A stretch of 64,000 nucleotides of DNA. Origin: Pectobacterium polaris (GTDB lineage Bacteria > Pseudomonadota > Gammaproteobacteria > Enterobacterales > Enterobacteriaceae). The stretch is taken from the NCBI RefSeq assembly GCF_002307355.1, contig NZ_CP017481.1, forward strand, positions 2,480,001 through 2,544,000. Direction: 5' to 3'. The first letter of the stretch is position 1; each line of letters starts with the position of its first letter. A model generated the notes under the pieces. It was not told where the DNA came from and did no database searches. It worked only from the letters and a program-made list of their open reading frames with translations. Positions 15,771 through 36,982 of the stretch are shown one piece after another. Position numbers and translations under genes: made by a program.

Positions 15771-15840
15771 ACGGACATCCTTGTCCGCCACCCTTCGGGC
15801 CGTCGCAAGCGACGTTGAAAAACGCTCCCAGCGTTTTTTT
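15771..15840 (+). repeat. Four-hairpin dispersed repeat, copy A
   Basis: Four successive hairpins: H1 15773-15786 (GGACA/TGTCC), H2 15791-15800 (CCC/GGG), H3 15801-15814 (CGTCG/CGACG) and H4 15818-15838 (AAAAACGCT/AGCGTTTTT, then extra T). The same order and spacing recur at 30642-30712 and, inverted, at 36875-36945. This copy lies between the yfaZ terminator and the tyrP stop. Confidence 0.85.
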
Positions 15841-15852
15841 ATGCACGTAAGG

Positions 15853-17061
15853 TTAACTGATTGACGGTAGCCAGCCCGCGACCATCGCCAGTTGGATCAG
15901 GATAATCGCTACTCCGCTGGTGAAGACCAGTGCCAAGACTGGCGCGCCACCGCGCGTTGCGCGTATTTCAGGACGCTGTTTGCGTACCTGCCAACTCAGC
16001 AGGGCGGGAATAAGCAGTGCCAGCACGGCCAGTGCGATCGCCGCATAGCCCAGCGCCATCACGAACCCTTGCGGATAAAAGAGGGCAAACACCAGCGGGG
16101 GAATAAAGGTCAGCAAGCCCGTTTGCGCGCGCCCGATGATGCTATTTTTACGTTTAAACAGATCGGCTAAATAATCGAACAATCCAAGTGCCACGCCGAG
16201 GAAAGAGGTCGCCAGTGCCAGATCGGCAAACAGGTGTACGGCCAGTTCAACGTGCGGTGAGGCAACCAGCGTGCGAATAGCCTGCATCAACCCATTCAAT
16301 CCCGCCTGATCGGCCAAAATAGCGTTGAATGTTGAAGAGCTGAGGCTGCCCAGCATCACAAGCTGCCAGAAAATATAGGCAATCAGCGGTATCACGCTAC
16401 CGATAAGGAATATCCGGCGCAGCTTACGGCTGTCGCCCCCCATGTAGTGCACGATACTGGGGATACTGCCGTGAAAGCCGAAGGAGGTCAGAATGACGGG
16501 TAATGCTGAGAGCGTCAGACCTTGTTGCAGCGGCAGCGTTAGTAGGTTGACGCGCTGAATATGCGGCACCATGACGGCCAGCATGATGACAAGCATCAGG
16601 ACTTTGCCGCTAAACAGGATGCGGTTAAACAAATCGACGGAGGATGTGCCGATACAGACTACGCCGCCAGCAACCAGCGTAAAGAGCAGAATGCCTGCGG
16701 ACAATGGAAGTGAGTAGCCACTCCACTGGCTAATACTACTGGCGAGCAGTTCGCCTGCGCCGCTGATATACGCTGCCGTTAGCGCATACATCAGGAATAA
16801 CATACTGAAACCGGTGATCCACTGTCCCCAGCGGCCGAGGTAGATTTTTGCCAGCGTGCCCAGCCCGGTGTGCGACGGCTGATGTTGATACACTTCAACC
16901 AGCAATAAGGCGCTGTAACACATCAGTGCCCACAAACCGATTAATATCATCAATGTAGTACCAAACCCGACGCCGGCGGTGGCTAACGGCATCGCCAACA
17001 TCCCCGCGCCAATGGTGGTGCCTGCAACGATAAAAATGCTGCCAAGAGTACGATTTTTCAC
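15853..17061 (-). CDS. tyrP: Tyrosine-specific transporter TyrP
   Basis: Proton-driven aromatic amino acid permease of the HAAAP family (402 aa), inner membrane, with about 11 hydrophobic segments. It begins MKNRTLGSIFIVAGTTIGAGMLAMPL, whose GTTIGAGML motif is typical of the Mtr/TnaB/TyrP group; further family stretches are ILTSFGFHGSIPSIV and LALATSFLGVALGLFDYLAD. TyrP is preferred over Mtr because of overall similarity and the TyrR box pair with a promoter in the upstream gap, the arrangement known for E. coli tyrP. Confidence 0.88.
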   Translation of the reverse strand: MKNRTLGSIFIVAGTTIGAGMLAMPLATAGVGFGTTLMILIGLWALMCYSALLLVEVYQHQPSHTGLGTLAKIYLGRWGQWITGFSMLFLMYALTAAYISGAGELLASSISQWSGYSLPLSAGILLFTLVAGGVVCIGTSSVDLFNRILFSGKVLMLVIMLAVMVPHIQRVNLLTLPLQQGLTLSALPVILTSFGFHGSIPSIVHYMGGDSRKLRRIFLIGSVIPLIAYIFWQLVMLGSLSSSTFNAILADQAGLNGLMQAIRTLVASPHVELAVHLFADLALATSFLGVALGLFDYLADLFKRKNSIIGRAQTGLLTFIPPLVFALFYPQGFVMALGYAAIALAVLALLIPALLSWQVRKQRPEIRATRGGAPVLALVFTSGVAIILIQLAMVAGWLPSIS

Positions 17062-17106
17062 CTATTCCTCTATAAATAGCGTGGCTATCCAGATATTTTT
17101 GGCAGC

Positions 17107-17135
17107 AGGGTAGAGTATTCAGTGATTTCTGTCAA
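17107..17135 (-). promoter_or_regulatory. Predicted tyrP promoter
   Basis: On the minus strand a perfect -35 TTGACA (17130-17135), a 17-base spacer and a weak -10 TACCCT (17107-17112), placing the start about 40 bases before the tyrP ATG. Confidence 0.65.
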
Positions 17136-17170
17136 AACGCCGTTACGAGGGGTGTAATTTTATATTTACA
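17130..17170 (-). promoter_or_regulatory. TyrR operator pair (strong and weak box)
   Basis: Strong box at 17153-17170, TGTAATTTTATATTTACA, has 11 of 12 fixed positions of TGTAAA-N6-TTTACA. A weaker box at 17130-17147 (TGTCAA-N6-GTTACG) keeps the essential G and C and overlaps the -35. Box starts are 23 bp apart, about two helical turns, which suits cooperative TyrR binding. Confidence 0.75.
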
Positions 17171-17282
17171 CTAGAGTGAGGCTCGTCGGCGGTGGCGTAT
17201 TTTTCGGCGGGCTGAAAGAAATATTGTGTTTGTTCATCCGACTTTTTAAAGTGGTTTCAGGATCGTCACGAGGAATAAAAAA

Positions 17283-35736: not shown

Positions 35737-36204
35737 TCAGGCGCTTTTCAGATAATCGAGAACGATGTCATGGTGGTTGCTGGTTTTGAAGTCGTCAAAC
35801 ACCTTCTCCACCTTGCCATTTTCATCGATCAGGAAGCTGATGCGATGAATACCGTCATAGGTTTTCCCCATGAAGGTTTTTTCTCCCCAAACGCCAAATC
35901 CTTCTGAAACCTGATGATCCTCATCAGAAAGCAGCGTGAAATTTAAGACTTCTTTCTCGACGAAGCGGGACAGTTTTTCTGATTTGTCCGTGCTAATACC
36001 GAGAACTTCAACGCCATGTTTTTTCAAATCGTCCATATTATCGCGCAGGCCGCAAGCCTGAACGGTGCATCCTGGCGTCATCGCTTTAGGGTAGAAATAC
36101 ACCAACACTTTCTGTCCCTGGAAGTCGGTTAAATTTACTTGTTCGCCATCTTGGTCGGGCAAGCTAAATTTCGGTGCGATATCACCGGCTTTCAGTGTGT
36201 TCAT
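35737..36204 (-). CDS. bcp: Thioredoxin-dependent thiol peroxidase Bcp
   Basis: Atypical 2-Cys peroxiredoxin (155 aa) reducing hydrogen and lipid peroxides. The peroxidatic Cys is in YPKAMTPGCTVQACGLRD and the resolving Cys lies five residues on in the same motif. The ATG at 36204 has GGAG 7 bases upstream; a GTG precedes it by one codon. It follows gcvR by 75 bases on the same strand, as in E. coli. Confidence 0.97.
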   Translation of the reverse strand: MNTLKAGDIAPKFSLPDQDGEQVNLTDFQGQKVLVYFYPKAMTPGCTVQACGLRDNMDDLKKHGVEVLGISTDKSEKLSRFVEKEVLNFTLLSDEDHQVSEGFGVWGEKTFMGKTYDGIHRISFLIDENGKVEKVFDDFKTSNHHDIVLDYLKSA

Positions 36205-36279
36205 CACGACTCTCCGTCTTGTTTCTCTTCATGCTGTGGATATACCCATGCTATTTGCAATAATAATGGCAACGTTATG

Positions 36280-36831
36280 CTATTGGGCATAGTTAACGAC
36301 GCTAATACTGCCTTGTGCGTGCAATTCTGTACATAGCTGATGAAAGGCTGGCTCAATAATTGAGCTATCAAGCGTGGTCGAACTGTGTGCGGCAATCTGA
36401 ATATACAGCTGCGGCGGCTTGTCACCTTCGGCGGGCTGGGTTTTTGAAACCAGCTCAGCAATGTTTAACTGGTGAGAATCGAACAAATCGGTAAAACGCT
36501 CGATGATGTGAGGAGAGTCGGCAACGTCAACCTTCACCCAGACGGTAGAAGGTGTTGGCTGGCTGGCCTGCGACTCTGTCCGCTTCATCACGATCAGCAA
36601 ATCCATCTCCGCGCCTTTCAGCGGCAGGGTTGATTCAATCAGCGTTATCGCGTTCCAACTGCCGGACAGTAGCATAATGAAAGTGAACTCTTTGCCCAGC
36701 ATAGCAAGACGGCTATCTTCGATGTTGCAGCCACAGCTACTGACGTGGCGGGTAATCGCATTGACAATACCGGGGCGATCAACCCCCAGCGCGGTAATAA
36801 CCAGATAGTGTTCTTGTGAGCTTGGCAACAT
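36280..36831 (-). CDS. gcvR: Glycine cleavage regulator GcvR
   Basis: Regulatory protein (183 aa) with two ACT domains that binds GcvA and represses the gcv operon in the absence of glycine. ACT 1 begins HYLVITALGVDRPGIVNAIT, ACT 2 VWVKVDVADSPHIIERFTDLF. The ATG at 36831 has AGGAAG 5 bases upstream and matches the E. coli start. A four-hairpin repeat lies in sense orientation in its leader. Confidence 0.95.
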   Translation of the reverse strand: MLPSSQEHYLVITALGVDRPGIVNAITRHVSSCGCNIEDSRLAMLGKEFTFIMLLSGSWNAITLIESTLPLKGAEMDLLIVMKRTESQASQPTPSTVWVKVDVADSPHIIERFTDLFDSHQLNIAELVSKTQPAEGDKPPQLYIQIAAHSSTTLDSSIIEPAFHQLCTELHAQGSISVVNYAQ

Positions 36832-36874
36832 CGTGCTTCCTGTCTTTTTTCCCATTAATCACATGGTAAACATA

Positions 36875-36945
36875 AAAAATTGCCTGGAGCAATTTTTAAC
36901 GCCGCTTGCGGTGGCCCGAAGGGCGGCGGACAGGGATAGTCCGCC
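36875..36945 (-). repeat. Four-hairpin dispersed repeat, copy C (gcvR leader)
   Basis: Read on the minus strand: H1 36945-36925 (GGCGGAC/GTCCGCC), H2 36924-36914 (GCCC/GGGC), H3 36911-36902 (CCGC/GCGG), H4 36897-36875 (AAAAATTGC/GCAATTTTT plus an extra T). H4 is terminator-like and ends 43 bases before the gcvR ATG. Confidence 0.85.
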
Positions 36946-36953
36946 GTAAAAAA

Positions 36954-36982
36954 CTGGAGCAATTTTTAACGCCGCTTGCGGT
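36954..36982 (-). repeat. Partial tandem copy C' of the hairpin repeat
   Basis: 29 bases identical to 36884-36912 (part of H4 plus H3), displaced by exactly 70 bases, so one repeat unit was duplicated and then lost its H1 and H2. Confidence 0.85.

Follow-up and report, generated by a model that had tools for sequence, protein, structure and literature searches.

A dispersed four-hairpin repeat of Pectobacterium, homologous to small RNAs of the Escherichia coli rrn T1-T2 spacer, often follows intrinsic terminators and forms tandem arrays

INTRODUCTION

The spacers between the terminators T1 and T2 at the end of E. coli rRNA (rrn) operons have been published as the small RNAs (sRNAs) RrA, RrB and RrF, which belong to the tRNA-linked repeats (TLR). 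They are made by read-through of T1 and bind Hfq and CsrA in vitro, and 5S genes are followed by homologues in 12 genera, one of them Pectobacterium, with at least 31 species in all (PMC8144298, in part). The same paper gives GGA in a hairpin loop as the CsrA motif, reports that RrB with three GGA motifs changed showed no shift with CsrA in the tested range, and mentions that the T1-T2 spacer is also carried by many expression plasmids. Other described repeats include REP, a palindrome of 20 to 40 bp with a GTAG or CGTC tag (PMC3733652, in part), and YPAL, which is mobile and lies beside or across dyad symmetry (PMC2229807, in part). Here we analyze a repeat found in a stretch of 64,000 nucleotides from Pectobacterium polaris (NZ_CP017481.1, positions 2,480,001 to 2,544,000 of the forward strand; hereafter the window), a unit of about 73 bp with four hairpins, H1 to H4. 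The repeat forms a dispersed family that is homologous to RrA, RrB and RrF, the core of the rrn-linked TLR.

Our data make it probable that this repeat is a non-autonomous mobile hairpin cassette which in Pectobacterium inserts at the T-runs of terminators, brings along its own terminator-like hairpin and is in places kept as RNA. Apparently new are the branch of the family that is dispersed, follows terminators and forms arrays, and its link to the rrn sRNAs and to inserts in ERIC and YPAL repeats. A literature search at the level of titles and the starts of abstracts found no description of dispersed terminator-linked copies, although its coverage was incomplete and this does not amount to absence in print.

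RESULTS

Three full copies and one partial tandem copy lie in the window where a sequence-only reading of this DNA had placed them; the copies start directly 3' of a T-run, at most 3 bases before the starts first noted. H1 has the loop CATCC.TG, H2 has the form CCC..GGG, and H4 has a TCC loop followed by T's. The stems of the copies had been described as differing in sequence yet staying paired, and larger sets of copies bear this out. We aligned 20 of 26 copies (alignment A1; six partial or decayed copies were excluded) and built from A1 the covariance model R1, which includes all three window copies. In A1, 88.2% of the cells are paired and both-side changes occur in 15 of the 25 pairs; none of 500 shuffles was as high on either measure. 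Among 109 distinct Pectobacterium copies (A3; from 117 matches at E≤1e-8), 94.2% of the cells pair, 21 of the 25 pairs show both-side changes, and the covariation score is 0.399 compared with 0.136 in shuffles. In 34 distinct copies from other genera (A4; from 36 matches at E≤1e-10), none of which was used for R1, the score is 0.537 compared with 0.160. No shuffle out of 500 reached the observed score in either set, and both scores also exceed those of slid-partner controls, while the shuffles leave the relatedness of the copies in place. The paired percentage in A3 and A4 is biased upward because these sets are fitted to the model and hold matches below the stated E-values only, with no decayed copies. 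One of five measures, the count of further pair types, was not above shuffles in A1 (120/500 as high) or A4 (303/500). H2 is nearly invariant and has the weakest paired-change signal of the stems, so that it says little on covariation; H4 is paired in 97.3% of the A3 cells, with T's at its end. In single-sequence folding, window copies 1 and 3 did better than 200 of 200 shuffles and copy 2 reached a z of −1.9, with 8 of 200 shuffles equally good; the unconstrained fold of copies 2 and 3 fuses H2 with H3.

A BLAST search with copy 1 finds 25 places in its own 4.83-Mb genome, and R1 finds 69 matches at E≤1 and 60 at E≤0.001. A covariance-model search of Pectobacterium and its relatives, proposed in the sequence-only reading, gave matches (E≤0.001) in 25 of 25 Pectobacterium genomes, with at least 33 to at least 139 matches each; these counts are lower bounds, as 150 of about 1,250 to 1,700 candidates were scored per genome. 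Within the family Enterobacteriaceae, 63 of 149 genomes have a match at E≤1e-4, which equals 63 of 149 genera, and in the whole order 84 of 247 genomes and 34 of 87 genera do. By eye, 14 matches retrieved from other families share the layout, with a TCC-type loop in H1, a TCC loop in H4, the sequence CCCTnnGGGC and a joint of the GTT/ATT CAAA type. In E. coli, blastn detects the element in 3950 of 5426 complete genomes, and no annotated feature lies under it among the eight matches listed.

The element is kin to the rrn sRNAs. At K-12 rrnA, rrnB and rrnD the element is the T1-T2 spacer (R1, 78.8 bits each), whereas the retrieved ends of rrnC, rrnE, rrnG and rrnH gave no R1 match at E≤10, the rrnC stretch ending 181 bases past the 5S gene. 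The E. coli members are thus the TLR sRNAs RrA, RrB and RrF of these three operons (PMC8144298, in part), and the earlier statement that no named element with this layout is known is not supported. The transcript of rrn has the reverse-strand sequence, opposite to the orientation noted for the window copies. On this strand, 31 of 34 copies from other genera and 81 of 109 from Pectobacterium have GGA in the H1 loop, and 32/34 and 97/109 have it in the H4 loop. The corresponding numbers are 3/34 and 4/109 for H2, and 0/34 and 0/109 for H3. Window copies 1 and 3 carry the GGA loop motif. At K-12 tyrT, R1 gives weak matches antisense to RtT at its four copies (19.7 bits and three of 13.2 bits).

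Some copies of the family adjoin rRNA or tRNA genes. The window copies do not have the placement of TLR, which directly follow an rRNA or tRNA gene and come with an 18- to 19-bp copy of its 3' end, and Rfam at gathering score finds no rRNA or tRNA in the window; with no such gene adjoining, we regard them as kin of TLR and not as members. At five loci in other families of the order (L229, L237, L227, L233 and L256), the element is near tRNA genes or between tRNA T-arm-like pieces (GGATT^CGAACC), as in tRNA-linked repeats. In another genus (L204, 218-471 and 1621-1739), an ERIC-borne copy is the immediate neighbour of a Spot 42 match, and a CsrC match lies roughly 1 kb away.

Copies in Pectobacterium prefer certain sites. 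Under a strict rule (within 4 nt), 16 of the 69 own-genome matches lie directly 3' of an intrinsic terminator. The same rule was satisfied at about 0.9% of intergenic control positions outside copies (138 of 16,014 strand-positions in the window and 363 of 38,024 in other own stretches) and at 9 of 4,000 positions in an all-position control, which includes coding DNA and is too lenient as a control. Genes being taken as the longest open reading frame, the left gene faces the terminator in 15 of the 16 cases, and both neighbours run the same way as the copy in 10 of the 16. In the mapping relative to genes that the sequence-only reading had called for, gene orientation relative to the copies is mixed, and we dropped it as a sign of RNA function. 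Of 68 copies at other Pectobacterium loci, 25 come directly after a terminator and 18 after another copy, the 68 being non-duplicate matches at loci chosen for high score or as orthologues of the window copies. A T|A left junction is seen in 57 of these 68 copies and in 42 of 51 copies from other genera, four duplicate rows having been removed before these counts.

Further copies sit in other repeats. ERIC-type repeats host some elements at three recurrent places, and ERIC-type flank motifs alone accompany 17 of the 69 own-genome matches. YPAL motifs without a terminator were seen at seven of the 69, two of which also carry an ERIC motif. Of these seven, six split the central hairpin of a repeat resembling RU-2 (PMC2759123, in part), and the seventh lies beside such a repeat. 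We also considered that the element might always occupy the loop of an outer palindrome and dropped this as a general rule: with similar flanks removed, outer stems of at least 6 bp occur in 2/24, 2/25 and 1/12 copies, about as often as with permuted flanks (means of 1.6, 1.9 and 0.8), striking as the single cases at YPAL and L195 are.

Orthologous sites differ by whole units. The site of copy 1, 3' of the terminator of a yfaZ-like gene and before tyrP, holds a full unit in 12 of 25 genomes, H1 and H4 in three and H1 only in one; it is empty in seven, and the terminator was not found in two. When an empty site (genome G012) is compared with a filled one (G010), the terminator and the right flank are common to both, and what the filled site has in addition is exactly one 73-bp unit, located at TTTTTTT^ATG with TTTTTTTATG at both junctions. 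An ERIC repeat upstream of this site is intact in G012 but has an interruption in G001, with AAT for TTT at the left border. Before gcvR, the site of copy 3, both flanks were found in 11 of the 25 genomes, which have no full unit (1 genome), one (5), two (4) or a truncated unit (1).

Tandem arrays reach considerable length: in G017, ten full head-to-tail units and a decayed eleventh stand directly 3' of a terminator. Both suggestions of the sequence-only reading find support here, since the empty and filled sites agree with a mobile element and the ten-unit array agrees with a portable terminator array, for which H4 is the predicted terminator. In 15 of 19 arrays outside locus 2, the first unit outscores the last (p 0.019, in a test prompted by six arrays that had been viewed), but all nine locus-2 orthologues listed show the opposite polarity, and we rejected array polarity as a general trait, the signal being weak and contradicted at this locus. 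The arrays at L089, L181, L252, L257 and L132 stop at an incomplete unit that is cut inside H1 or just past it (near CACCCT).

In the window, cmsearch with R1 returns four matches at E≤1, and their scores are partly circular because the training set of R1 holds the three window copies. Copy 1 (15768..15840, plus strand; 96.2 bits) has H1 to H4 and a terminator-like H4 ending in T7. The yfaZ-like gene upstream has an intrinsic terminator, a hairpin with a T-run (15730..15767, plus strand), which copy 1 follows, the insertion site being the end of the T-run. A terminator scan lists the hairpin of this terminator at 15730-15766, read on the minus strand, and the consensus listing of the scan does not contain H4 of copy 1. 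The convergent neighbour is tyrP, for a tyrosine transporter (15853..17061, minus strand; NCBIfam NF011711, 727 bits). Copy 2 (30642..30714, plus strand; 73.9 bits) lies between purM and upp in the 5' leader of upp, the uracil phosphoribosyltransferase gene (30740..31369, plus strand; NCBIfam TIGR01091, 296.7 bits), directly downstream of a TATAAT box and a T8 run (30621..30641, plus strand). Copy 3 (36874..36947, minus strand; 78.3 bits) lies between an AraC-type gene and a gcvR-type gene for a glycine cleavage repressor (36280..36855, minus strand; NCBIfam NF008612, 358.8 bits), upstream of the latter. The partial tandem unit beside copy 3 is an H3-H4 half (36948..36982, minus strand; R1 match at 36948-37036, minus strand, 16.7 bits). 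No Rfam family falls on the window copies at gathering score, and a search of 30600-37000 at E≤1 also leaves copies 2 and 3 without an overlapping family. Rfam matches elsewhere in the window are a Rev24 antisense RNA (292-780, minus strand), a cspA thermoregulator (53746-54154, plus strand) and a fluoride riboswitch (54677-54781, minus strand).

Copy 2 is old and has been kept, as it is present in the upp leader in 25 of 25 Pectobacterium genomes and the orthologous leaders of the 24 other genomes are 95 to 99% identical over 268 to 272 bases. In all 25 genomes, the stretch corresponding to 30621-30740 has a TATAAT box, seven or eight T's and a near-invariant element with a terminator-like H4, followed by the start codon. 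The upp-leader copy is a possible attenuator.

DISCUSSION

Our work connects a dispersed repeat of Pectobacterium with the rrn spacer sRNAs of E. coli. How could such an element have spread? We hypothesize that the Pectobacterium branch multiplied by insertion at T-runs, often directly 3' of terminators and in the direction of the terminator, gain by insertion being the usual direction of change, and that machinery acting in trans, presumably an enzyme encoded elsewhere, would recognize the hairpins and the T-run. Because a copy has its own terminator-like hairpin ending in a T-run, H4 and its T's would reproduce the target and each copy would offer a similar site for the next. Near-identical units would in this way build head-to-tail arrays, homogenized by recombination, which could act as back-up terminators. 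Copies that came to lie in transcribed places might have been recruited, in rrn as a CsrA-binding RNA and, at upp and gcvR, perhaps as elements of the leader; fixed copies would then be kept as parts of transcripts, as in the rrn T1-T2 spacer and probably in the upp and gcvR leaders. Outside E. coli rrn, too, copies may bind CsrA or RsmA. A more far-reaching proposal is that of a self-targeting cassette that homes to terminator T-runs, uses its own terminator as the next landing site, binds CsrA/RsmA with two GGA loops off the other strand and is the source of the recruited rrn sRNAs; we put this forward tentatively and think it rather less likely than not to hold in full.

A number of observations weigh against a mobile cassette or against its recruitment as RNA. 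Precise loss between the TTTTTTTATG repeats on either side may account for the empty sites. The left border at the ERIC repeat is not exact, as its border bases differ. Just 5 of 51 copies in other genera follow a terminator, which makes the tracking of terminators a trait of one branch, and the patterns used gave no site class for 29 of the 69 own-genome matches. We found no mobilizing gene, although no systematic search for an autonomous relative was made. As regards RNA function, the upp-leader copy has neither GGA loop and yet is the best conserved, forward-strand transcripts of the terminator-linked copies lack GGA loops, and the GGA strand is probably silent at these copies, because both neighbours so often run in the same direction as the copy (10/16). 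In E. coli, deletion or overexpression of RrA, RrB and RrF had modest effects on CsrA phenotypes, and CsrB displaced RrB from CsrA at a ten-fold lower concentration (PMC8144298, in part).

The sequence-only reading had taken the paired stem changes as a sign of selection on structure. Structure is indeed kept while the sequence changes, but the stems do not point to RNA over DNA: non-Watson-Crick stem cells are G-T in 40 and A-C in 41 cases in A3 (3 and 7 in A4, 13 and 18 in A1), whereas the acceptor and T stems of tRNAs, our comparison set, have 11 and 2. Neither strand favours G.U over A.C, so that selection on RNA is not demonstrated, and we rejected wobble pairs as an argument for it; counts of this kind are expected from DNA hairpins or from hairpin-templated repair. 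The concept behind such repair is quasipalindrome correction. The paired changes would then stem from templated repair and not from selection, with the structure arising as a side effect of how DNA palindromes mutate. The missing wobble strand bias speaks for this explanation, as do the cells with both sides altered, the majority of which are Watson-Crick swaps; it leaves unexplained the conserved loop letters, the precise presence/absence difference and the spread over 34 of 87 genera, and we consider it possible but doubtful as the whole account. Templated repair and a mobile cassette are compatible and can coexist.

Could the family instead be a dispersed CsrA/RsmA-binding RNA, in which selection keeps the two reverse-strand GGA loops and the copies act as decoys or as sites in 3' or 5' untranslated regions? 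The GGA loops are conserved while the stems change, RrB binds CsrA through GGA (PMC8144298, in part), and the reverse strand is transcribed in rrn and again at K-12 tyrT, where the matches are antisense to RtT. As an explanation of the family, however, such an RNA is unlikely in view of the mixed orientation to genes, the forward sense of the tRNA-Phe-linked copies L229 and L237, the lack of a G.U excess on either strand, the missing GGA loop in the best-kept copy at upp and the modest E. coli phenotypes (PMC8144298, in part).

A REP- or BIME-like element moved by a Y1 transposase (RAYT or IS200-type), possibly one since lost, would likewise yield hairpin repeats in intergenic DNA, and by eye two of the three IS200-type (Y1_Tnp) copies of the own genome (L029, L030 and L031) start no more than about five bases from a T-run, and this insertion sequence (IS) may thus share the targeting of T-runs. 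Against this stand the 73-bp units with four hairpins and a T|A left junction in place of a REP palindrome with its GTAG tag, and the distribution of the enzyme: no REP-associated Y1 transposase was found resident throughout the genus, any Y1_Tnp at all being present in just 8 of 25 genomes and in none of G022, G007 and G012, which have the most R1 matches. We therefore rejected the Y1 transposase as the mobilizer and hold this explanation to be very improbable. The sequence-only reading had allowed for a match to a described REP/BIME or IS family; as far as tested the repeat belongs to neither REP nor IS, but it is kin to the described TLR class.

One measurable family joins the long-puzzling E. 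coli rrn T1-T2 spacer, inserts in ERIC and YPAL repeats and terminator-following arrays in a genus of plant pathogens. It offers a testable origin of a small RNA from mobile DNA, an example of a mobile element that seemingly chooses transcription terminators as targets and a possible route by which genomes gain multiple terminators or RsmA/CsrA sites.

Several known systems share features with the family. Group IIC introns home to intrinsic terminators; the element described here, with 73 bp, is too short for a reverse transcriptase gene, and no Rfam intron lies at the window copies. ERIC (also IRU or RU-1; 127 bp) is likewise a dispersed, structured intergenic repeat of enterobacteria. It differs in sequence, length and structure, and our element is an insert in ERIC-type repeats, recognized by eye from short motifs of the ERIC consensus. 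Insertions of about 70 bp in ERIC have been noted earlier. YPAL/RU-2 has a central hairpin with the same AAGGATG loop (sequence in PMC2759123, in part), but is 168 bp long and of other sequence, and by short motifs seen by eye our element inserts into it. RtT RNA (Rfam RF00391) is a TLR of a tRNA operon, at whose four copies R1 has matches on the opposite strand; the match is weak, and the Rfam RtT model has no match in the window. Closest are RrA, RrB and RrF, with the same four hairpins, a strong R1 score and GGA loops on the transcribed strand; in contrast to them, the family described here is dispersed, with dozens of copies per genome, and forms tandem arrays 3' of terminators.

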